Source: Candidatus Ventrenecus stercoripullorum
GTDB taxonomy: Bacteria; Bacillota_I; Bacilli_A; RF39; UBA660
DNA length: 46,865 nt
Direction of reading: 5' to 3'
Assembly (NCBI GenBank): GCA_018712835.1
Contig: DVGF01000062.1
Location: 1-46,865, forward strand
In this document: piece by piece, positions 3,600-31,580 of the stretch
How positions within the stretch are numbered: position 1 is the first letter of the stretch
Layout: every line of letters starts with the position of its first letter
The notes under the pieces: model-generated
What the model was told of the DNA's origin: nothing
What the model saw: only the letters and a program-made list of their open reading frames with translations
Database searches by the model: none
Program-made: the position numbers and the translations under genes

Positions 3600-4193
3600 A
3601 TGAAATTTTTAAAATACTTTTTTGTTGTATTATGTACTAGTTTTCTTTTTATGGGAAATGTTTTTGCTGCAGTTGAGTCTGAAACATTGAGTGAAGTTTG
3701 TGAAAGTGAAGATCTTACTTGTGACTTTACGGAAAAAGATACCAGTGGTAACAGAAACATTTATGTTTTCCGAGGAGATGGATGTAGTTATTGTCAAAGA
3801 CTTTTAACTTATTTAGCAAGTATTTATGACGATTATAGTGATGAGGTTAATATCGTGATTTATGAAGTTACTGGCAATCGTGATAATATGAATTTATATG
3901 AAGATGTTGCTGCTAAGTTTGGAGATGAAGTACAAGGATATCCATATATGGTAATTGGAGAAGAAGTCTTTAACGGATATACTTCTAGTTATGATAGTGA
4001 TATTGTGGCTGCTATTGAAGATTTGATTAGTGCAGAAACTCCTTATGATGTTGTAGAAGAAGTAAATAGTGGAAATACAGATGTTGTAGAAGAAGAGTCT
4101 AATTCTACTGCAGTTGTTATTACTTTCATTTTTGCAGCAGTTGTGATTGTCCTAGTATTTATGGGATATCGCTTAAAAAATATTAAAAAATAA
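3600..4193 (+). CDS. Membrane-anchored extracytoplasmic thioredoxin-like protein
   Basis: Protein of 197 aa with an N-terminal signal/anchor (MKFLKYFFVVLCTSFLFMG, then AVES), a thioredoxin-like domain with the redox motif CSYC at about residues 57-60, a cis-proline region (QGYPYMVIGEE), and one C-terminal membrane helix followed by a basic tail (RLKNIKK). It is probably exported and tethered by its C-terminus, acting in disulfide chemistry outside the cell. The start is ATG 3600 (GGGAGTG ribosome site); the frame opens at 3567 but that is inside the promoter region (TATACT near 3573). A CcdA-TlpA fusion at 31838-33028 could supply electrons to it; that link is inference. Confidence 0.75.
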   Translation: MKFLKYFFVVLCTSFLFMGNVFAAVESETLSEVCESEDLTCDFTEKDTSGNRNIYVFRGDGCSYCQRLLTYLASIYDDYSDEVNIVIYEVTGNRDNMNLYEDVAAKFGDEVQGYPYMVIGEEVFNGYTSSYDSDIVAAIEDLISAETPYDVVEEVNSGNTDVVEEESNSTAVVITFIFAAVVIVLVFMGYRLKNIKK

Positions 4194-4215
4194 ACATGAA
4201 ATTTCCCTTAAAATG

Positions 4216-4224
4216 TGGTATAAT
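4216..4224 (+). promoter_or_regulatory. Extended -10 promoter for the CarD-like gene
   Basis: TGGTATAAT: a consensus TATAAT (4219-4224) with the extended -10 TG. No good -35 is seen. The start is expected near 4231, upstream of the hairpin at 4242-4277. Confidence 0.6.
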
Positions 4225-4241
4225 ACTATTACAACGAGTAG

Positions 4242-4277
4242 CTATTCAATGCGTAAAACCGGTTGAATAGTTTTTTT
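4242..4277 (+). promoter_or_regulatory. Terminator-like hairpin in the CarD leader
   Basis: CTATTCAA (4242-4249) pairs with TTGAATAG (4263-4270) and is followed by seven T. It has the form of an intrinsic terminator but lies between the apparent promoter (4219-4224) and the GTG start at 4298. It could be an attenuator for the CarD-like gene, or simply the terminator of the upstream thioredoxin gene with imperfect readthrough. Confidence 0.55.
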
Positions 4278-4297
4278 GTATCATGGGAGGGTTTATA

Positions 4298-4783
4298 GTG
4301 AAAAATGTTGGTGATTATATTGTATATCAAAAAGATGTTTGTAAGATTGTTGATCGAAAAGAAAATGCTTTTTCTCATCTAGATTGTTATTCTTTAATTC
4401 CTGTTCGAGATGAAAGTTTAAAATTAAGTGTGCCGGTTACAAATTCGAATATTCGTGATTTAATGAGTCAAGAAGATATAGAAAATCTTATTGTAGAAAT
4501 ACCTTCGATACCGCTTATTGATTTGGATGATAAGCAATTAGAAAATGAATATAAAAGATTACTTAGTTTAGGAACGCCTAAAGATTTAATTCAAATTATT
4601 CGGACGACCTACATGAGAAATCAAAAAAGAATTGAACATAATAAAAAAACGAGTGATAAAGATAGTCGTTATTTTGAATTAGCAGAGACATATCTTTATT
4701 ATGAAATTGCTACGGTTATGGGTATGAGTTTTGAAGAAGCTAAGGAATATGTTTTTCAAAAAGTTCATAATGAAATTTCATAA
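4298..4783 (+). CDS. CarD/CdnL/TRCF-type transcription regulator
   Basis: Protein of 161 aa. The N-terminus (KNVGDYIVYQKDVCKIVDR, with SYSLIPV-like strands following) has the form of the CarD/CdnL RNA-polymerase-interacting domain, and the helical C-terminal half contains an acidic/basic pattern (ELAETYLYYEIATVMGMSF) typical of this family. Such proteins bind the RNA polymerase beta subunit and stabilise open promoter complexes. The start chosen is GTG 4298, eight bases after GGGAGGG; an ATG at 4283 overlaps that ribosome site. Its leader contains a terminator-like hairpin, which suggests regulated expression. Confidence 0.75.
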   Translation: MKNVGDYIVYQKDVCKIVDRKENAFSHLDCYSLIPVRDESLKLSVPVTNSNIRDLMSQEDIENLIVEIPSIPLIDLDDKQLENEYKRLLSLGTPKDLIQIIRTTYMRNQKRIEHNKKTSDKDSRYFELAETYLYYEIATVMGMSFEEAKEYVFQKVHNEIS

Positions 4784-4786
4784 GTT

Positions 4787-4815
4787 TTGACATGCTATTT
4801 TGTTTTTTGTATAAT
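4787..4815 (+). promoter_or_regulatory. Near-consensus sigma-A promoter
   Basis: TTGACA (4787-4792), 17-base spacer, TATAAT (4810-4815). It drives the gene starting at 4844. A short hairpin (TCCCT/AGGGGA, 4819-4836) right at the expected transcript start overlaps the ribosome site AGAGGGGA. Confidence 0.85.
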
Positions 4816-4843
4816 AATTCCCTGTAAAAGAGGGGATTTTTCT

Positions 4844-5713
4844 ATGAATCTAACAAAGTTATTTGAAAAAGAAATGGCGGAGTTACAAATATATGAGCCT
4901 TTTGAGATTGCTAGGTATTTCTATATTAGAACTGGTCAATTATTTGAATATCATCCTTTTTATAGTTATCTTGATCAAGAAAAGCAGGATTGTATTAATA
5001 AAGAAAGAAAAGATATTTTTTGTATTCAAGATTTTTATGTTACTTGTTTTAGTTGGTCACAGCTTTATGTAGATTTATTAGCATATTTTGGGATTTATGC
5101 GGAACAGGTTTCTAGTGTACATCATTGTTTTGTTTTGATTCCATTAGACGATATGTACATACAGGCTGATTTGATGGCTCAATCTTTTGATTTTTATCGA
5201 ACTAAGTTATGGTTAAATACAAGGGACTATACTAGTAAGATGGCTGATTTTAAGTTGCAATTATGGGAGGCTGATCATAAAATTATGGCTCGTTATTCTA
5301 TTCGGATGGAAGCAGTTTTATCCATGATAAGAAAAGAACTAGCGAGTTATAGTCACAATGATGATGAATTGCTTTCTAATTCTTTTGAAGCGATCTCTTG
5401 TCTTTTGAAATATCATTCTTTTGGTCATGTTACTGGTAAGAAGTTTTTGCGTAAAACAGCGGATTATTTTGCAGATAATTTGTATTCTGAATATGGTGGA
5501 TTGGGTACTTTTTATGATATTTCCAATCAACAAAGAATTGATATTTTTAGCTACTATAGGCCTAGTGATGTGACAAAGCAAGAGCTTTATCGTTTTGATA
5601 TTAGTGAAGATGGGACAATGAAGCTTGTGCGAACGAATAAAAAAGAAATAAGCGATTATTATCATACAATGAATACAGATCAGGGAGATTATTTTAGATC
5701 TATTATTTATTAA
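4844..5713 (+). CDS. Unknown protein, possible transglutaminase-like fold
   Basis: Protein of 289 aa with no certain family. The middle has a spacing reminiscent of the transglutaminase/papain-like core: a Cys in VTCFSWSQ (about residue 68) at the head of a helix, His in SVHHCFVLI (about 93/94) and Asp in YIQADLM (about 109), with strands between. No signal peptide or membrane helix is seen, so it is probably cytoplasmic. The start at ATG 4844 is fixed by the promoter at 4787-4815 and AGAGGGGA; the upstream extension to 4787 overlaps the promoter. Enzymatic activity is inference only; the C-terminal 170 residues are unrecognised. Confidence 0.55.
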   Translation: MNLTKLFEKEMAELQIYEPFEIARYFYIRTGQLFEYHPFYSYLDQEKQDCINKERKDIFCIQDFYVTCFSWSQLYVDLLAYFGIYAEQVSSVHHCFVLIPLDDMYIQADLMAQSFDFYRTKLWLNTRDYTSKMADFKLQLWEADHKIMARYSIRMEAVLSMIRKELASYSHNDDELLSNSFEAISCLLKYHSFGHVTGKKFLRKTADYFADNLYSEYGGLGTFYDISNQQRIDIFSYYRPSDVTKQELYRFDISEDGTMKLVRTNKKEISDYYHTMNTDQGDYFRSIIY

Positions 5714-5740
5714 TTCCCAATAATTACCGTTCATTTGTTC

Positions 5741-5769
5741 GTGACATTTTTATCGAACTATTGTATACT
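5741..5769 (+). promoter_or_regulatory. Promoter of the radical SAM/DUF4130/chaperonin operon
   Basis: GTGACA (5741-5746), 17-base spacer, TATACT (5764-5769). The predicted start is near 5776, so the leader is very short and the ATG at 5788 rather than 5761 must be used. Confidence 0.65.
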
Positions 5770-5787
5770 ATTATTGGTGATGATTTG

Positions 5788-7002
5788 ATGACATTAAAAG
5801 AGAAACTTGAAATCTTAGCCGACAGCGCTAAGTATGATGCATCTTGTTCTTCTAGTGGGAGTGCAAGGCAAAATAAAGGTGGAGTAGGGAATACTTCGAT
5901 TTCGGGGATTTGTCATTCTTTTTCTAGTGATGGAAGGTGTATTTCTTTACTTAAAATTTTGATGACAAATTGTTGTATTTTTGATTGTAAATATTGTGTG
6001 AATCGCAGGAGTAATCATGTCAAGAGGGCAATGTTTACTCCTTTAGAGATTGCTAGTTTGACAATGAATTTTTATAAAAGAAATTATATTGAAGGTTTGT
6101 TTTTGTCTTCGGGAATTATTAGAGACCCTGATTATACGATGGAGAAAATGATAGAAGCGATTTCTTTGTTACGTTATAAGTATCATTTTCATGGTTATAT
6201 TCATGCAAAAGTAATACCGGGTGTCAGCCCTATTTTAGTACAGAAATTAGGAAGTTTAGTAGACCGGTTAAGTGCTAATATTGAGCTTCCGACGGAGAAT
6301 GGTCTTAAGCTTCTTGCTCCGGATAAGAACAGTGATAAAGTGATAAGCATTATGAAGTTTGTACGTGAAAAGCGAAGTAAACAGTTTACACCTGCTGGAC
6401 AAAGTACTCAGATGATTATTGGGGCAACGGGTGAAAGTGATTATGATATTATGTCCTGTAGCAATCATCTTTATCAAAAATATCAATTAAAAAGAGTGTT
6501 TTATTCGGCCTATATTTCGGTTAATAAAGATAAGATGTTACCTAGTTTGAAAGTGCCACCTTTAAAAAGGGAGAATCGTCTTTATCAAGCGGATTTTCTT
6601 TTAAGATTTTATCCGTTTCAAGTGGATGATTTGTTGACACGTGAAAATCCTAATTTTAATGTTTTAGTAGATCCTAAGGCGGATTGGGCTTTGAGGCATT
6701 TGAATGAATTTCCAAAAGAAATTAATAAAGCATCTTATTATGAATTGTTGAAGGTTCCTGGAATTGGTCCGACATCGGCTAAAAAAATTGTTTCTTCACG
6801 ACGTTATTTTACTATTCATTTTTCTGATTTGAAAAAGATGGGGATTTCTTTGAAAAGAGCTAAGTATTTTATTTTGTGTGATGGTAAATATTTTGCAAAT
6901 CCTTCTTGTTTTCAAAAAGATTTTATTACTCATAATTTGGTTTTAGAAGATAGGAGTGGGAGTAGTTCTATGGCTACTCAGTTAAGTTTGTTTCATGAAT
7001 AA
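5788..7002 (+). CDS. Putative DNA modification/repair radical SAM protein (TIGR03916 type)
   Basis: Protein of 404 aa. After a Cys/Ser-rich N-terminus (DASCSSSGSARQNKGG) comes the radical SAM cluster motif CIFDCKYC (C-x3-C-x2-C), a TIM-barrel region (GLFLSSGII, NIELPTENGLKLLAPDK), and a C-terminal helix-hairpin-helix (ASYYELLKVPGIGPTSAKK) that suggests DNA contact. This order matches the family annotated as a radical SAM protein linked to a UDG-like partner, whose reaction is not established. The next gene starts 8 bases before its stop and is the usual partner (DUF4130). The start is set by the promoter at 5741-5769. The family is confident; the biochemical role is unknown. Confidence 0.88.
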   Translation: MTLKEKLEILADSAKYDASCSSSGSARQNKGGVGNTSISGICHSFSSDGRCISLLKILMTNCCIFDCKYCVNRRSNHVKRAMFTPLEIASLTMNFYKRNYIEGLFLSSGIIRDPDYTMEKMIEAISLLRYKYHFHGYIHAKVIPGVSPILVQKLGSLVDRLSANIELPTENGLKLLAPDKNSDKVISIMKFVREKRSKQFTPAGQSTQMIIGATGESDYDIMSCSNHLYQKYQLKRVFYSAYISVNKDKMLPSLKVPPLKRENRLYQADFLLRFYPFQVDDLLTRENPNFNVLVDPKADWALRHLNEFPKEINKASYYELLKVPGIGPTSAKKIVSSRRYFTIHFSDLKKMGISLKRAKYFILCDGKYFANPSCFQKDFITHNLVLEDRSGSSSMATQLSLFHE

Positions 7003-7741
7003 TAGTGAGTCAACTTATTTATATGACGGGACATGGGATGGGCTTTTGACACTTATTTTTTGGCTTTTTTCAAAACGAATAAAACCTTTTGGGATAAAAG
7101 TGGAAGAACAGTATGAAGAAAACTTGCTTTATCCAGCCATTAAGCCAATGATTGCTAGTGATTTTTCTTTTTCTAGAAAGAAGGTTTCCAATAATATATG
7201 GCGTATTCTTTTTCTTGTTTTTTTAACAGAGGAAAGTGATAAGGAATTAGTGATTTATTATGTTTTATTGAATGATTTTAAATATGGTAATGAGGTTATT
7301 TTTAGACGGAATTTGAATTGTGTAAATAAAGCATTAAAGTATTCTAGAAAAGTATCTCATGAAGCACATAAGTGGAAAGGTTTTTTACGGTTTTCTAAAA
7401 TGAAAGGAAATATTTATTATGCTAAGTTTCATGCTGATGTGAATATTTTGGGGATTTTGGCAAATCATTTTGTGAAGCGACTGGCTAATGAATATTGGGT
7501 AATTCAGGATGTTGGAAGAAATATTTTATGTTTGTATGATAAACGGGAAGTCACTTTTTGTTATGGAGAGGATATTCATTTGCAAATTCATAAAGATGAG
7601 GATGAAAGGGAAATGGAGGAGTTATGGCGCGTCTTTTTTCAGACAATTGCGATTAAAGAACGAAAGAATTTACGATGTCAGCAGAGTTTTATGCCTAAAA
7701 AGTATTGGCAAGATATGTTAGAAATGGAGGATATGGTATGA
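6995..7741 (+). CDS. DUF4130 (TIGR03915) DNA-metabolism protein
   Basis: Protein of 248 aa. It begins with the typical YDGTWDGLLTLIF, and has the EAHKWKGFLRFSKM block, YYAKFHADVNILGILANHF, and the C-terminal LWRVFFQTIAIKERKN with MPKKYW. These are the hallmarks of the DUF4130 family that travels with the radical SAM protein just upstream; in other genomes it can be fused to a UDG-like domain, which is absent here. Its start overlaps the upstream stop by 8 bases and its own TGA overlaps the next ATG (ATGA), so the three genes are translationally coupled. It is thought to act on DNA but the reaction is unknown. Confidence 0.85.
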   Translation: MNNSESTYLYDGTWDGLLTLIFWLFSKRIKPFGIKVEEQYEENLLYPAIKPMIASDFSFSRKKVSNNIWRILFLVFLTEESDKELVIYYVLLNDFKYGNEVIFRRNLNCVNKALKYSRKVSHEAHKWKGFLRFSKMKGNIYYAKFHADVNILGILANHFVKRLANEYWVIQDVGRNILCLYDKREVTFCYGEDIHLQIHKDEDEREMEELWRVFFQTIAIKERKNLRCQQSFMPKKYWQDMLEMEDMV

Positions 7742-20955: not shown

Positions 20956-21534
20956 ATGAATGAGGAAGTTTATAAGCTGTTGCAAAATGTTGATAAGAGT
21001 GTTCATAAGTGTACTTTGTGTCATGGTTTGGTAGAAAAATTTCCTAATACAGATACTGTGTTTTTAGGTAGAAATAATGATATTGTGTTAGTAGGGGAAG
21101 CTCCGGCTAATAACGGTTGGCGTAAGAGTCATCTGTTGTGGCGTGACGAGTCAGGGAAAATGCTTCCTAGTGGGGTAGTATTACAAAAGCTTTTTGATAT
21201 TATTGATAAAAATATTTTGGAAACGACTTTTTTGGAGGCTGTGAAATGTTATCCTTTGGATCGAAAATATTTGAAGGTTTGCTCTCTTCATTGTAAAGAA
21301 TTTATGATGGCTCAGTTAGAGATTTTAAATCCTAAACTTATTATTACTTTGGGAGAATTTCCTACTAGAACTTTGCTAGATTTTTCTTTTAAAAGATTTT
21401 CTGATGTTGTTGGGAATGTCTATGAGGTTGGGAAGTATCTGGTGTTACCAATTTATCACCCTAGTCCTATTTCTCCAAAAAGTTATAAAGGGAATGAGCC
21501 TATTTTTGAAAAAATAAAGAATGAATTATTATGA
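20956..21534 (+). CDS. Uracil-DNA glycosylase superfamily protein (family 4-like, 4Fe-4S)
   Basis: Protein of 192 aa. It has motif I VLVGEAPANNGW (residues about 44-55), the region NPKLIITLGEFPTRTLL, and motif II LPIYHPSP. Cys19, Cys22, Cys98 and Cys113 have the spacing of the 4Fe-4S ligands of family 4 enzymes. Family 4 UDG removes uracil from DNA. Motif I here lacks the usual acidic GEGPGEEED, having Asn-Asn instead, so the substrate may differ. It is the last gene of the ATPase operon and ends at a terminator. Confidence 0.85.
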   Translation: MNEEVYKLLQNVDKSVHKCTLCHGLVEKFPNTDTVFLGRNNDIVLVGEAPANNGWRKSHLLWRDESGKMLPSGVVLQKLFDIIDKNILETTFLEAVKCYPLDRKYLKVCSLHCKEFMMAQLEILNPKLIITLGEFPTRTLLDFSFKRFSDVVGNVYEVGKYLVLPIYHPSPISPKSYKGNEPIFEKIKNELL

Positions 21535-24247: not shown

Positions 24248-25135
24248 TTATTTTTTCTCTTGTTCGCAATGTTTGTAATATTCTTCTACAGTGATATTTG
24301 ATTTTGGTTTTTTATATTCATATAAACATAAGTTGTTTTTGTTATAGTTGTTTTTTAATTCATCAAGAATAAATTTTTCTTTTACATCTAATAGTAGTTC
24401 TTCTAATGAAGGGTATTCATGTATTCCTTTCCATTTCTCCCATGCATGTTCAAACCAGTAGTACTTGTTGTTTTTTTGATAGGTCAGAAATGTATGAGTT
24501 GGACATTTGTCGTTATCATAATGGACGATGAAATAAGTTTTTATATTTTGATATCCTTTAAAATAGTATCTTTCTAATTCTACTTGATCCCAACATACAC
24601 CAATTTTATTTTCTATTACTTCTTGTGGAGATTGTAATCTATATTTTCTAGAAAACGTTTCATCAATTGTTAAGTGTTTCTTTTTTTCGTCGTCCACCCA
24701 TCCATATTCTATTTGTTCTAGAAATGTCATAATTTCTTTTTCGGTATAGTAGTTCCATATACTGAGTGAGCCTGTTGCTTTTATAGGAAGTATTGGAGTA
24801 ATGTTATCTAATACCCATGCGTATCGTTCTTCCCTGTAATCCCCACAGATGTATTCTTGATGGCTCTTTTCTTTTATATTCTCTACATATTCTTTTGTCA
24901 TATAAATACAATCTACTAGGTTACATTTGCAGATAATGTTTCCAAAATTTAAAGGAGTGTTTTCTATTAAAGTAAAAAGTTCGGTATTGTCTTTCCAATT
25001 TTTTGGTATTTTTGTGGAACTTGCATGGATATAAAGCTCTCCTCGGTAATCCGTTTTCCAACTTCTGGTTTCAATCCACTTTTTCTTTTCTTTAATTAAC
25101 GTTGCATATGGCTCTGTTAAACTTAGTACTTTCAT
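24248..25135 (-). CDS. ASCH domain fused to a transglutaminase-like domain
   Basis: Protein of 295 aa. Residues 1-130 are an ASCH domain (MKVLSLTEPYATLIKEKKKWIETRSW, YRGELYIHAS, and a closing PIKATGSLSIWNY). Residues about 165-260 resemble a transglutaminase/papain-like core with Cys in KIGVCWDQVELER, His in PTHTFLTY, and an acidic residue in YYWFEHAWEKWKGIHEY. ASCH domains bind RNA or nucleic-acid modifications, so the fusion could act on an RNA- or nucleotide-linked protein target; this is inference. A TGTATAAT promoter and GGTGA ribosome site precede it. A stand-alone ASCH protein is at 31170. Confidence 0.7.
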   Translation of the reverse strand: MKVLSLTEPYATLIKEKKKWIETRSWKTDYRGELYIHASSTKIPKNWKDNTELFTLIENTPLNFGNIICKCNLVDCIYMTKEYVENIKEKSHQEYICGDYREERYAWVLDNITPILPIKATGSLSIWNYYTEKEIMTFLEQIEYGWVDDEKKKHLTIDETFSRKYRLQSPQEVIENKIGVCWDQVELERYYFKGYQNIKTYFIVHYDNDKCPTHTFLTYQKNNKYYWFEHAWEKWKGIHEYPSLEELLLDVKEKFILDELKNNYNKNNLCLYEYKKPKSNITVEEYYKHCEQEKK

Positions 25136-26757: not shown

Positions 26758-27702
26758 ATGAATTCTTTTGTATATCGTTTTTACATGCGGGATGAAATGA
26801 TTTTAAAAACGGTTATTTTTGCTTCGGCATTTGGTTTGGTGATTGATTCTTTTAAAACAGCGGATGAACAAGGGAATTTCCCTTATCGTATTCGTTTTTA
26901 TCATGGAAATAATATTGTTGGATATATGGATTGTCAATGCGATGATTTTTCATATTTTAATGTAGGCAAAAAATATCCCTTTGTTTTATTTACGCCGGTT
27001 GGGAATATTACTGGGTATTATTCTAGTTATAGTCACGAAAACTCTTTTATTTATCAATTAGATCTTTACCACCCAGAAGAAGTGGATATCGTTAGTGGCC
27101 ATTTTCATATTGCTCGCAAGAAATCGTTAGCTTTTTTTGAAGATGAAGAAGTTAATTATTTTATTGGTACATATGCTAATGCATTTAAAAATGGAGAAAG
27201 AGTAGTTGATTTGTCTACTAATTACTGTGTTAGTCAACAAGCACTTTCTATAAGAGATTATCGTAGCTTTGAAGAAATTACATATGGATATTATGGGGAT
27301 TTTTATATTTATCATAGGAAGATAGAAAATCGTGAAGAGAAAATTTTATCAAAGATAGCAATCTCTAACCAAAGATATCCTGATTGTGATGGCTCATTTA
27401 CTTTTGTTGATACTAATAAAGGGTATTCTATTCACAATATGCGTGATAAGAAAGGAAATATTTTATTTGACGTTATTCATGCGGAAATTAAGAAACATGA
27501 TCCTTGTTTTTTTGAAACTTTGAATCGTGTAAGAGATGCTGTTACTTTTCCTGTTTATGGTGGAAATATTTCTTTATATGATCGATTTATTCATTTATCT
27601 TTTGAAAATAATGAGGAACTTTTTTCTATTTTCCAGGATTGTGAAGTAAAAGCATTGAAAAAAGAAAATCCGCTTGTTCGTAAGTATCAACATAGGAAAT
27701 AA
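26758..27702 (+). CDS. Unknown protein
   Basis: Protein of 314 aa, strongly beta-rich with many Tyr and Phe, no signal peptide and no membrane helix. Stretches such as PYRIRFYHGNNIVGYMDCQC, GNITGYYSSYSHENSFIYQL and YPDCDGSFTFVDTNKGYSIH suggest repeated sheets, but no family is recognised. A strong GGGAGG ribosome site precedes the start. It follows the HAD gene and the two may be co-transcribed. Confidence 0.55.
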   Translation: MNSFVYRFYMRDEMILKTVIFASAFGLVIDSFKTADEQGNFPYRIRFYHGNNIVGYMDCQCDDFSYFNVGKKYPFVLFTPVGNITGYYSSYSHENSFIYQLDLYHPEEVDIVSGHFHIARKKSLAFFEDEEVNYFIGTYANAFKNGERVVDLSTNYCVSQQALSIRDYRSFEEITYGYYGDFYIYHRKIENREEKILSKIAISNQRYPDCDGSFTFVDTNKGYSIHNMRDKKGNILFDVIHAEIKKHDPCFFETLNRVRDAVTFPVYGGNISLYDRFIHLSFENNEELFSIFQDCEVKALKKENPLVRKYQHRK

Positions 27703-27716
27703 ATTGTTTATATCAT

Positions 27717-27741
27717 AAAAAAAGAAAACTTATAGGTTTTC
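27717..27741 (-). terminator. Terminator of the minus-strand Ppx/PurA-like/UDG operon
   Basis: On the minus strand, GAAAAC and GTTTTC (27741-27736 and 27729-27724) form a stem followed by seven T. It overlaps the UDG-like gene's stop. Confidence 0.65.
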
Positions 27742-28449
27742 CCAAATTCTTTGGTATTGTTTTAGTTGCGTTTCTCCCTTTATTTGAGCAGTTGGATGGT
27801 ATAAGGGGATGATGGTAATATCTTGTAGAGCTATGATTGGAGAAGTTTCTATTGTTTTGGATAAGTTTTTTTCTATTTTAAAATGATAAATTTCTGATAA
27901 TGATAAAAGAGGATAGTAACCTAGTGTTACAATGATTTTCGGATTTACTATTTCTATTTGTTTTTTTAAAAAACAAGAACAATTTTTTGTTGATTTGTTT
28001 AAATCAATATTGTTGCCACGATAAGTTGTACCGGTTCTTGCACACATAATTGCGTTTGTAATAAAAAGAGAATTTAATATAGTTTCATCTATTTTTATAT
28101 TGTAATCCTTAGCAGAAAGAATTAAATATTTTGTTAACATTTTTTTGGTTAAGCTAGGCTCGGTGTCTATTAAATTTTGCCAGTGTTTTTCTGTGGGATT
28201 TTTTTGATATTCCGTGTGTAATTTTTGCATGTCTATATATGGACCCCAATCTTGCCCAATGACAAAAATTTTTGCATCTAGTCTGTGAAACCAATCGGTC
28301 CACATAGAGGGAATAGCTTGGCAAAATTCTTGATTTTTGTAAATGTTTATTAAAGAGCAATTGCTTCCATTTTTCTTTTTTAATGATAGGCATTTTTGGC
28401 AGTTAGATAGTTCTTTTAGTAAATTTTTGAATTTTTCTTCTTTGTTCAT
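27730..28449 (-). CDS. Second uracil-DNA glycosylase superfamily protein
   Basis: Protein of 239 aa. An N-terminal NCQKC pair (Cys17, Cys20) and later Cys in NAIMC and KNCSC could hold an iron-sulfur cluster. Motif I is KIFVIGQDWGPYID, the central strand NPKIIVTLGYYPLL, and motif II IIPLYHPTAQ. In motif I Gln-Asp replaces the Gly-Glu of family 4/5 enzymes, so activity may differ from uracil excision. It is the last gene of a three-gene operon with a PurA-like ligase (13 bases upstream) and a Ppx/GppA-like protein. AAGGAAA precedes the start. Confidence 0.8.
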   Translation of the reverse strand: MNKEEKFKNLLKELSNCQKCLSLKKKNGSNCSLINIYKNQEFCQAIPSMWTDWFHRLDAKIFVIGQDWGPYIDMQKLHTEYQKNPTEKHWQNLIDTEPSLTKKMLTKYLILSAKDYNIKIDETILNSLFITNAIMCARTGTTYRGNNIDLNKSTKNCSCFLKKQIEIVNPKIIVTLGYYPLLSLSEIYHFKIEKNLSKTIETSPIIALQDITIIPLYHPTAQIKGETQLKQYQRIWENL

Positions 28450-28462
28450 ATTTTTTCCTTTT

Positions 28463-29824
28463 TTATTTTATTAGCGGTTTTTTTAATATACGTTCCATAT
28501 TTTTTGGGCCTGTTCCAAGAGCTGCGATTTCTACTTGGGTGTTTCTCTCTAACCAATCAAAATATTCTCTTAAATATCGATTAAAGTAGTAATTTTCAAA
28601 GTTTCCTTTTTCTCCTTTATATTCTAGGCCTAAATGTTGGAAAAAATTTAAATATAAAACGTATGGATTATTGATTTGACAATTTAATTTTAGTTTTTTA
28701 ATATCTAAATCAAAGATTCTTCTTTCCATTTTTGTTACAGTTGTTTGTTCTGATTGATCGATAATGGTATTTGGTGGGAAATCTTTATCAAACATAGGAA
28801 GTTCTATTAGTCTTGTTTGATATTCTTGAATTTTTCTTGCTTTATACATTAAGCGTTCTAGCTCTAGTGCTTCTAGGAGAGTGATTTCATCTATTTTTAT
28901 TGATTTATAATTGTCTCCAAAAGTTTGTTTTAAGTATATTTCTGGGCAATGGCTCAGTAGTTTTTTTATCTTTTTAATTTTTAAAAAACTATTATAACAG
29001 TCGACGATACTACGATGAGGATATCCTCCATATAATGTGGCAATGTTAATTTCTGTCCATGTTAGTTCATCGCCATTCCCATAATTTCCAGAATAAATAA
29101 ATTCTCCCGAAGACGTAATATTGCTAATTCTAATCGGAAATGGTCGTATCACCATTATTGTCTCTAGTAATCTTTCTGCAGCAATTCCAGAGTCTGCAAG
29201 TAATTGCATAGTGGAAACTTCACGGCAAGTTGTGTTTGGGTAGTGTCCACTGTGGTTGATATCTAAGTCACATCCTTGGGCGCCTTCTAATATTACATAT
29301 TCATTAGGATTTTCTAAGTGTTGATATAATCTTTCATGCCATTCGTTGTTAGAACAAACTACAGCATTTTTATAAGTTTGAAAGAACTCTAAATTTTTTT
29401 CTTTCATAATTTTTTCACAAGTAACAGCATTGCCACCTTTAAATGTTGAACCAGTTTTAATATGTTCTTTTTCGTATTGTTTGTGGCGACTTTCGATTAA
29501 TGGGACCATTTCATGGACATAAATTTTTCTGTCTTTTAAGTATTTTTGGGCTTGTTCATATTCTGCTTGAAACACGGTCATGTCGATGGCGGAACCTGGA
29601 CCAATAAATAGTTCCGTTTCAGGATTTACGATTGAAACAGGAATATTTCTAAATACTGTAGCATTGCCATTTTCGTCAACAAAAGTGTGTCCAGCATTTG
29701 GCATACAGTTTGTTACTGCAGCACCTAATTTTATATTTTTGTCTGTTGCTATTTCGCCAACTACTTTGGCTTTTCCACAGCTACCAGCAGCCCCATCAAT
29801 GACAGCTATTACATTTTTATTCAT
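28463..29824 (-). CDS. PurA-superfamily ligase with PurZ-like active-site changes
   Basis: Protein of 453 aa related to adenylosuccinate synthetase (about 430). Kept: the N-terminal P-loop-like GSCGKAK, PNAGHTF (His46, equivalent to PurA His41), the ILEGAQGCDLDINHSGHYP block, and the C-terminal AALGTGPKNME. Changed: the catalytic Asp13 of PurA (GDEGKGK) is Ser15; the aspartate-binding loop TTGRxRRxGW reads TLYGGYPHRS; the guanine-binding T/NKxD appears as YLNFF at about residues 390-394, after an extra insert of roughly 100 residues. Phage PurZ enzymes, which make the 2-aminoadenine precursor, also lose the catalytic Asp and the GTP specificity. GGGGG precedes the start. The product is unknown. 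Confidence 0.8.
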   Translation of the reverse strand: MNKNVIAVIDGAAGSCGKAKVVGEIATDKNIKLGAAVTNCMPNAGHTFVDENGNATVFRNIPVSIVNPETELFIGPGSAIDMTVFQAEYEQAQKYLKDRKIYVHEMVPLIESRHKQYEKEHIKTGSTFKGGNAVTCEKIMKEKNLEFFQTYKNAVVCSNNEWHERLYQHLENPNEYVILEGAQGCDLDINHSGHYPNTTCREVSTMQLLADSGIAAERLLETIMVIRPFPIRISNITSSGEFIYSGNYGNGDELTWTEINIATLYGGYPHRSIVDCYNSFLKIKKIKKLLSHCPEIYLKQTFGDNYKSIKIDEITLLEALELERLMYKARKIQEYQTRLIELPMFDKDFPPNTIIDQSEQTTVTKMERRIFDLDIKKLKLNCQINNPYVLYLNFFQHLGLEYKGEKGNFENYYFNRYLREYFDWLERNTQVEIAALGTGPKNMERILKKPLIK

Positions 29825-29843
29825 AATTTCCCCCTAAAAGTTT

Positions 29844-30734
29844 TTATAAATCGTTGATGACTCCATTAATTAAATTTAAATCTGATGGAATAATCCAATT
29901 TGCGTTAGCTAATTTAAATAACACTAAAGGAATGATAGCGCCACTTCTTGCACCATCCATCCATTTTGGATTTCCAGGCATTAATTTGTATAACTCCTCT
30001 AAAGAAATATCGTAGAATACTTTTTCTGTTCCTTTTATATAGTCTTCTAAACTTAGCATGTATTTATGTATGTTATCGTGAAATAATGTGTTTTCTATTA
30101 AGTTAAATCCTGTTAGTAATTCGAAACGTTCTTCGCCACCTGTAAATATTGCACAGTCATAATCGGTATCTAAGTTTAAAGAGGCACATTTTTCTTTAAT
30201 GAAGTTTTCCATTTCTTCTATAGTGTTACCACTGTAAGGATTGTTTACTTTGTCAAAATTATTTAGTAAGTCTGCCACTCCAATTTTTAAATTTTTGGTA
30301 TCGGTAATTTTATTTTGATAAAATGTTACTAATTCTGTTGTTTTCCCACCCATATTAATAATTAATACTTTTTTTCCATTGTAATCGTTATCCATTGCTT
30401 TTCCTAAATAGTAGTTTTCAATACCGTGAGAAATAATATTAAAATGTAAGTCAAATTTATCATTAAATAGTTTTACTAGTTCTTGTTTTTTAGAAAGAGA
30501 AAGTTCTCTAAATATTCCGGTTACATAGATATGAGTATTTTCGTATTTTAAATTGTACGTTTCTTTTAAATGTGTAAAGTAATCACATAATTCTTGCAAG
30601 TTTTCTTCACTGATGCCTTTTTCTTTGTCAAAATTGTTTTTAAAATAAATAGAATGTTCTTCTAATAATGTTAGTTCTTTGTCGTATTCATAAACTTTAA
30701 TTGTTGATGAACCTAAATCAATATAGTATTCCAT
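29844..30734 (-). CDS. Ppx/GppA-like (ASKHA fold) phosphatase homologue
   Basis: Protein of 296 aa, the length of short Ppx/GppA proteins. It has phosphate-1 YYIDLGSSTIKVYEY, the helix region THIYVTGIFRELSLSKKQE (Ppx has T-S-A-x-R-x-A here), phosphate-2 INMGGKTTELVTF (Ppx GGGSTE), and CAIFTGGEERF. Ppx/GppA enzymes hydrolyse polyphosphate or pppGpp; the changed motifs leave the substrate open. Start ATG 30734 follows AGGAG; the frame extends three codons upstream. It is first in a minus-strand operon with the PurA-like ligase and the UDG-like protein. Confidence 0.75.
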   Translation of the reverse strand: MEYYIDLGSSTIKVYEYDKELTLLEEHSIYFKNNFDKEKGISEENLQELCDYFTHLKETYNLKYENTHIYVTGIFRELSLSKKQELVKLFNDKFDLHFNIISHGIENYYLGKAMDNDYNGKKVLIINMGGKTTELVTFYQNKITDTKNLKIGVADLLNNFDKVNNPYSGNTIEEMENFIKEKCASLNLDTDYDCAIFTGGEERFELLTGFNLIENTLFHDNIHKYMLSLEDYIKGTEKVFYDISLEELYKLMPGNPKWMDGARSGAIIPLVLFKLANANWIIPSDLNLINGVINDL

Positions 30735-30783: not shown

Positions 30784-31102
30784 TTATTTTTTTATTTGCT
30801 CTTTTAGAAAGTTTTTTCTTACTTCGATGATGTTTATGTTTGTAATGTCTATGTCTTTGTTTTGATATGTTTCTTTTAAGTAAGTCATGAAGTTTTTTTC
30901 TAAAGCGTTTTCGTCTTTGATTTTAAATTTATTTGTTATTGTATTGTGGAATTGTTTCGGTGTAGTTAATAGTTAGTTCTGGTGATGAAAACATGAGTCT
31001 TATCGTATCAGAACTTAGTGTAAATCTTTCTAGGTGATGTTCTTTAAAAAAGTGGTTTTTCCACATCCCATGGCTCCTCTTAAAATAATTAGTTTTCGCA
31101 TA
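30784..31102 (-). pseudogene. Decayed polynucleotide kinase/ATPase gene
   Basis: Starts MRKLIILRGAMGCGKTTFLK (Walker A GAMGCGKT) with a GGAAGTGA ribosome site, then stops early. One extra base in the A/T run near 31043-31051 restores EHHLERFTLSSDTIRLMFSS and ELTINYTETIPQYNNK, typical of the kinase domain of T4-PNK/RNA-ligase-like repair proteins. The remainder (IKDENALEKNFMTYLKETYQ to the stop at 30784) looks like the C-terminal tail, so most of the gene has been deleted. It is non-functional. Confidence 0.75.
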
Positions 31103-31140: not shown

Positions 31141-31171
31141 AAATGAAGAACCCTCAAGTGTTTCTTCATTT
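31141..31171 (-). terminator. Terminator after the small ASCH gene
   Basis: AAATGAAGAA (31141-31150) pairs with TTCTTCATTT (31162-31171). On the minus strand a T run follows. Confidence 0.75.
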
Positions 31172-31580
31172 ATAAAGATGTTTTTATTTTAATCTTGTCA
31201 TTATAGTTCCATAAGCCTAATTGGCCATTGATGTAGATAGGCTCGATTGTCTGGATATTTTCTAGTTTAAATCCATAATGATTATTTTCTTGATTATTTA
31301 TTTGATTTTCATAAACGATAGACTTTTTCTTTTTTAGCATAGTTTTTGCTTCTTCGTTTATTTTTACGCAATCTGTTAAGTCTGCGATACCTAGAATGCA
31401 ACCGGTAGGATATTCTAAATGAAATTGTTCATATTTTTTTATGGCGTTTTTGTCTATTCCTTTACCTGCATGAATTAGTATGGGACCACGATAGTTTGTC
31501 TTCCATGTGCGAAATTCATATTCTTTTAATCCTGCGATGATTAAAGAGGCAAAGGGTTGCTTGATTGTTATTACTTTCAT
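31170..31580 (-). CDS. ASCH-domain protein
   Basis: Protein of 136 aa consisting of a single ASCH domain: MKVITIKQPFASLIIAGLKEYEFRTW, then YRGPILIHAGKGIDKN, and closing INGQLGLWNY. ASCH is a PUA-like fold; some members bind RNA, and YqfB-type members hydrolyse N4-acetylcytidine. It has no other domain, unlike the fusion at 24248-25135. A 220-base leader with several hairpins separates it from a strong promoter (31836-31808), so RNA-level control is possible. Confidence 0.85.
   Translation of the reverse strand: MKVITIKQPFASLIIAGLKEYEFRTWKTNYRGPILIHAGKGIDKNAIKKYEQFHLEYPTGCILGIADLTDCVKINEEAKTMLKKKKSIVYENQINNQENNHYGFKLENIQTIEPIYINGQLGLWNYNDKIKIKTSL

Follow-up and report, generated by a model that had tools for sequence, protein, structure and literature searches.

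Results

Organization of the locus

The window, a stretch of 46,865 nucleotides, contains an operon of three minus-strand open reading frames that encode, in order, a Ppx/GppA-like protein, a PurZ-like protein and a UDG-superfamily protein, separated by gaps of 19 and 13 nt (Table 1). An earlier note on this DNA had given this order, these coordinates and these three families correctly, with gaps of about 20 and 13 nt, and had placed a ribosome-site-led start upstream; indeed, AGGAG precedes the ATG of the Ppx-like frame at 30734, and a GTG nine bases further upstream is a less likely start. The terminator that it had proposed is present as an 8-bp A/U-rich hairpin with a T run overlapping the UDG stop codon, but it is weak and was not among the matches of a terminator pattern scan. 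A promoter scan of the sequence found no more sites than in shuffles. For gene pairs with measurable divergence, dN/dS is 0.06–0.26 for PurZ, Ppx and UDG; because of these values and because the Ppx–PurZ pair recurs in 30 other loci, we regard the three genes as real, and the PurZ genes are under purifying selection. The genomes compared, including the window's own (G000, 82%), are incomplete MAGs.

Table 1. Features of the operon, of its upstream neighbors and of the related locus in genome G017 (window positions unless a locus is named)
Feature	Position	Strand	Evidence and remarks
Terminator-like hairpin and T run after UDG, weak	27717..27743	-	-5.5 kcal/mol, z -1.1
UDG-superfamily gene, 239 aa	27730..28449	-	PF03167, UDG_fam4; RBS AAAGGA
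PurZ-like succino-purine nucleotide synthetase, 453 aa	28463..29824	-	NF038379 E 7e-52, PF00709; RBS AGGGGG
Insertion of ~90 residues (~265-355) between 2'-position loop and Asp-binding loop of PurZ-like protein	28760..29032	-	alignment
Active-site motif GAAGSCGKAK, Ser15 at PurA catalytic Asp13 position	29765..29794	-	alignment with phage PurZ and family PurA
Ppx/GppA-like gene (ASKHA-fold), divergent, operon gene 1, 296 aa	29844..30734	-	PF02541, TIGR03706 48.8 bits
Pnkp-like kinase-phosphatase-RNA ligase remnant	30784..31101	-	frameshift, ~1.85-kb internal deletion; 727-aa gene intact in G017
ASCH-domain gene upstream of operon	31170..31580	-	PF04266; 96% identical protein at same place in G017
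Ppx-HhH-like fusion and upstream intact Pnkp-like kinase-phosphatase-ligase gene of G017	L094 (G017:C11:13000-24000) 3736-5415, 5462-7645	-	

Elsewhere in the window, a second ASCH-domain gene with a further weak transglutaminase-like (DUF553) match flanks the region (24248-25135, minus), and both ASCH genes match PHROG 3193 (function unknown). Another UDG-superfamily gene (20956-21534, plus, 192 aa) is also present, and a 314-aa protein that has no Pfam match and is 97% identical in G017 is encoded convergently with the operon (26758-27702, plus).

The middle gene encodes a PurZ-type protein

PurZ, an enzyme that couples aspartate to a guanine nucleotide, is known in phages in which 2-aminoadenine takes the place of adenine; a few archaeal sequences also belong to it. 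Among NCBIfam models, the middle protein scores 176 bits with PurZ, below the curated cut-off of 300 bits for NF038379, compared with 125 bits for archaeal-type PurA and 78 bits for bacterial PurA; its PF00709 (Adenylsucc_synt) score is 77 bits. The catalytic Asp13 of PurA is not present in the window protein, which has Ser15 there instead, and this Ser is invariant in an alignment of 24 PurZ-like members. In PurA, Asp13 reaches 99% conservation, and its replacement by Ser distinguishes the PurZ group (PMC12884076). Along with Ser15, the bacterial proteins conserve the TTVTK loop, R368/R369, G125-S126 and R232-I233; the counterparts in S-2L PurZ are S23, R280, G130/S131 and R240/V241 (PMC8342488). 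Val241 of S-2L PurZ, at the I233 position, is placed to block the 2'-OH (PMC8342488), and by analogy the larger Ile would be compatible with a preference for deoxyribose.

The closest solved relatives by sequence are the S-2L and phiVC8 PurZ proteins, and the best structural match of an AlphaFold2 model (mean pLDDT 86) is phiVC8 PurZ (6tnh; TM by target 0.81). In the phylogenetic tree, PurZ and PurA split with support of 100/100, and on the PurZ side of that split 16 bacterial sequences form a single clade (100/100); long branches leave the order inside PurZ uncertain. Thus, by its residues, fold and position in the tree the middle protein is a PurZ rather than an ordinary PurA, with which it shares the fold of the adenylosuccinate synthetase superfamily but neither the catalytic Asp nor a place in the PurA branch. 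With phage PurZ (phiVC8 DgsS, S-2L) and PurZ0 (Archimedes) it has in common the Ser for Asp13, NAGHT, the TTVTK-x-x-RR loop and the fold (TM by target 0.78–0.82), at about 30–34% identity over the N-terminal 60%. In contrast to these proteins, the bacterial one is chromosomal, belongs to a separate clade, has a Ppx partner and occurs without a Z-cluster or host PurB. It also differs by the ~90-residue insertion, which is confidently modeled, is found in most bacterial members and is absent from phage PurZ and from a sister group (L077/L079/L080).

PurZ genes on bacterial chromosomes

A scan of 84,980 species genomes yielded 58 PurZ loci, 57 of them from records titled Bacilli, Bacillales, Erysipelotrichales, Firmicutes, Tenericutes or related taxa; the hosts are mainly small gut Bacilli. 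Within the family to which the window belongs, PurZ is patchy and present in 5 of 88 members, counting a fragment (G015) and a broken copy (G062). The PurZ group has been surveyed before, with prokaryotes sampled at two sequences per phylum; that set comprises 147 sequences from phages and four from archaea, with none from bacteria (PMC12884076). The viral contigs scanned with the PurZ-like protein contained no relative, and the open-licence literature yielded no relevant report on bacterial PurZ, on PurA with Ppx or on PurA with phage defense. Where PurZ stands alone, its surroundings are housekeeping genes (metK, prfB and rplQ neighborhoods). DatZ, MazZ, DpoZ, DutZ and DmtZ were not found among the PurZ neighbors examined by Pfam, and none is recurrent in the 58 loci.

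Rhizobial plasmids (L207 5461-7753, L209 5461-7753, L208 5995-8057) carry PurZ-like genes in which the catalytic position is Ser. One type encodes a fusion with a P-loop domain and overlaps with a DUF7002 gene; another overlaps with a dCTP-deaminase-like gene. Near some PurZ loci (L026, L076, L005 and L048) there are recurrent collagen-like proteins with GPTGPTG repeats.

The Ppx/GppA-like partner

The Ppx-like protein exceeds the PF02541 cut-off of 27 bits (32.1 bits), and its TIGR03706 score lies below the cut-off of that model. It belongs to a distinct subfamily, hereafter the special Ppx, whose members are mostly 73–83% identical to one another and 26–34% identical to ordinary Ppx of the same genomes. 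With Ppx/GppA phosphatases (TIGR03706; Helicobacter pylori GppA, 6pc0) it shares the profile over nearly the whole length and both catalytic Glu. It differs from them at the canonical DIGGGSTE, which is NMGGKTTE within the motif ..IINMGGKTTEL.., invariant in an alignment of 33 members. The acidic residues of the Ppx/GppA active site are two Glu and one Asp; in all 33 proteins Asn stands at the metal-binding Asp. A phage search with the Ppx gave no match.

The special Ppx lies 17–24 nt upstream of PurZ in 30 of the 58 loci, 52 of which have more than 1 kb of upstream sequence. Pairwise protein distances of the two partners correlate (mirror-tree r 0.85; 0 of 2000 permutations). Flanking genes beyond the two rarely repeat, and the two genes therefore travel or persist together. 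The conserved unit is the Ppx–PurZ pair, and the three-gene operon that the earlier note had put forward as a combination does not hold as a conserved system, since a UDG of this type lies near PurZ in only two loci. That note had set the scattering of homologues without their partners as evidence against it, and here the outcome is divided: 30 loci have the tandem, whereas 17 of the 23 genomes in which PurZ is not in tandem have no special Ppx at all, so that the Ppx is not obligatory. Some relatives have the special Ppx and no PurZ.

Near-absence of PurB and the status of PurA

PurB (TIGR00928), the host lyase that would release fumarate from the PurZ product, is absent from G000 and from all members of the window's family but one; among 50 PurZ genomes it is above the cut-off in one and absent from 49. 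Of 35 genomes searched, all of them PurZ carriers except G017, 33 have no member of the wider Lyase_1 superfamily (PF00206), and the controls for the lyase searches were positive in 14 of 14 cases. The phage route from dGMP through succino-dZMP to dZMP by way of host PurB is therefore probably unavailable. However, six family members (G019, G024, G026, G042, G043 and G048) have a full-length canonical purA and no recognizable purB; a lyase that escapes recognition is thus possible, and the argument about the end product may fail.

No canonical purA was found in G000 or in the family's other PurZ-type genomes. The earlier note had asked whether the middle gene makes up for a missing purA: the absence stands, but it is normal in the family, as about 80 of 88 members have no full-length purA and nearly all of these have no PurZ either. 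With PurB missing as well, the PurZ-like gene is not a PurA replacement.

UDG and other base glycosidases

The window UDG scores 42.1 bits with PF03167 (cut-off 24.3). With family-4 UDGs and UdgX it shares the UDG fold profile and, in a 14-member alignment of its subfamily, four Cys of the type found in Fe-S family-4 enzymes. It differs from them in motif A, which is an invariant GQDWGP instead of GEAPG, and in a score far below the curated family-4 cut-off (34 bits of 125). The Asp of GQDWGP is as in family 1 UDG, and motif B is YHPTAQ. A phage search with the UDG gave one weak match, SPR.

UDGs of the window type occur near PurZ in 2 of 59 loci, adjoining in the window and one gene away in L074, and UDG genes in PurZ genomes lie mostly elsewhere than PurZ. 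True relatives of the window UDG are present in 10 of 50 PurZ genomes versus 4 of 83 PurZ-less family members (p 0.008, uncorrected). A different UDG-superfamily gene is found directly 3' of PurZ in L049 and near PurZ in L073 and L074. A 253-aa protein family, C13, which is not in the window operon, adjoins the UDG in L074, L150 and L154 and lies near PurZ in L046, L055, L073 and L074; in L074 both UDG and C13 are upstream of PurZ. C13 has an HhH-GPD fold, and its best structural match is the queuosine-5'-phosphate N-glycosidase Qng1/DUF2419 (Z 14.1 versus 11.5 for endonuclease III; 13% identity). It occurs in 16 of 50 PurZ genomes versus about 3 of 82 PurZ-less family members (p 1e-5, uncorrected for phylogeny and genome size). 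HAM1, NUDIX, ASCH and other UDG genes recur near PurZ, with 19 matches in 715 kb versus 2 in 534 kb of arbitrary stretches, a count that is biased because the seeds came partly from the same loci.

Clusters of small genes for nucleotide cleaning (HAM1, NUDIX, UDG, hypoxanthine glycosylase, ASCH, C13) are also seen in reduced Bacilli (L151, L153, L161, L217 and L223). Elsewhere in the window's genome, a broken C13 copy lies beside a YjjX-type NTP phosphatase-like gene (G000:C31:11860-12339; L216 4879-5337).

The corresponding locus of G017 is 96–98% identical to the window in DNA, with a 257-aa HhH-glycosylase-like gene in the place of PurZ, from the Ppx stop to the ribosome site of the UDG. 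The Ppx stop is lost, so that Ppx and the HhH-like gene form a single 559-aa frame. The 257-aa part, identified as an HhH glycosylase by weak MutY-type matches, has four Cys at its C-terminus and is 49% identical to a protein that adjoins C13 in L152. Repair genes for nucleic acids and nucleotide genes are swapped in and out of the locus as cassettes.

Discussion

Several readings of the operon compete. Were the PurZ-like protein a divergent ordinary PurA making adenylosuccinate for AMP synthesis, its membership in PF00709 and the lack of any other purA in G000 and the other PurZ-type genomes of the family would be accounted for; the invariant Ser at the catalytic Asp, the fully supported position on the PurZ side of the tree and the missing PurB make this very improbable, and relatives that mostly do without either gene leave no vacancy to fill. 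PurZ homology and the residue analogy favoring a deoxyribonucleotide might instead point to 2-aminoadenine (Z) nucleotides or Z-DNA in the style of the phage Z-cluster, which we consider improbable given that nearby genes of the DatZ, MazZ or DpoZ type and a PurB-type lyase were not found. An anti-phage module could trap dGMP as a dead-end nucleotide, or plant an odd base to be excised by the glycosylase; such a product is plausible, the distribution is patchy, and the plasmid-borne rhizobial relatives have P-loop, DUF7002 or dCTP-deaminase-like neighbors. We nevertheless judge it unlikely, as PADLOC gave no match above noise to known anti-phage systems (weak matches for UDG and ASCH), lone PurZ genes under purifying selection sit in housekeeping neighborhoods, and the scanned viral contigs contained no relative; the degradation of nucleotides during phage attack suggested in the earlier note thus finds no support.

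The rarity of the UDG near PurZ and its usual position elsewhere in PurZ genomes fit a real two-gene Ppx–PurZ unit with an unrelated cassette landed behind it, a reading to which we give almost an even chance. Against it, genes of several different glycosidase families turn up repeatedly in the vicinity of PurZ or elsewhere in PurZ genomes, and in G017 such a gene, fused to Ppx, takes the place of PurZ. That the UDG acts in the PurZ pathway is conceivable, though we doubt it. The earlier proposal that an unusual purine nucleotide is made fits the PurZ evidence, whereas removal of the matching base from DNA is hinted at only by the recurrent glycosidase neighbors.

We read the operon as a step that uses up (d)GMP in an accessory network for nucleotide handling, its substrate and end product being predictions. 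Most likely, the PurZ-like synthetase would use a nucleoside triphosphate to join L-aspartate to the 6-position of GMP or dGMP, the latter by residue analogy, yielding N6-succino-2-amino-(deoxy)adenylate; (d)GMP and aspartate are the probable substrates. The product, which is likely to bypass conversion by PurB to 2-aminoadenine, may be an end product, may act as a guanine nucleotide sink or may be cut by an unrecognized lyase. The Ppx/GppA-like partner could hydrolyze or sense a phosphorylated guanine nucleotide and would therefore supply or control the substrate of PurZ, a role we propose tentatively given the Asn at its metal-binding position. The UDG-like protein would be a modular add-on from the base-glycosidase pool of these genomes, and its task may be to clear nucleotides or DNA of unwanted bases. 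Leaving the UDG aside, the core account, PurZ chemistry without PurB and with Ppx as a functional partner, seems to us somewhat short of probable.

What is new is that PurZ also exists as a conserved clade in bacterial chromosomes, often with a Ppx/GppA-like protein beside it. Its presence with the Ppx-like protein in hosts that lack the lyase implies an undescribed nucleotide or an undescribed lyase. More speculatively, and in our estimate unlikely, this lineage might make, without PurB, a finished nucleotide that is N6-succino-2-amino-(deoxy)adenylate or derived from it. Such a nucleotide could serve as a signal, a DNA or RNA base precursor or a guanine sink, and would be handled by a dedicated Ppx-like enzyme and base glycosidases. 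Furthermore, the existence of a PurZ clade on bacterial chromosomes bears on the origin of phage PurZ.
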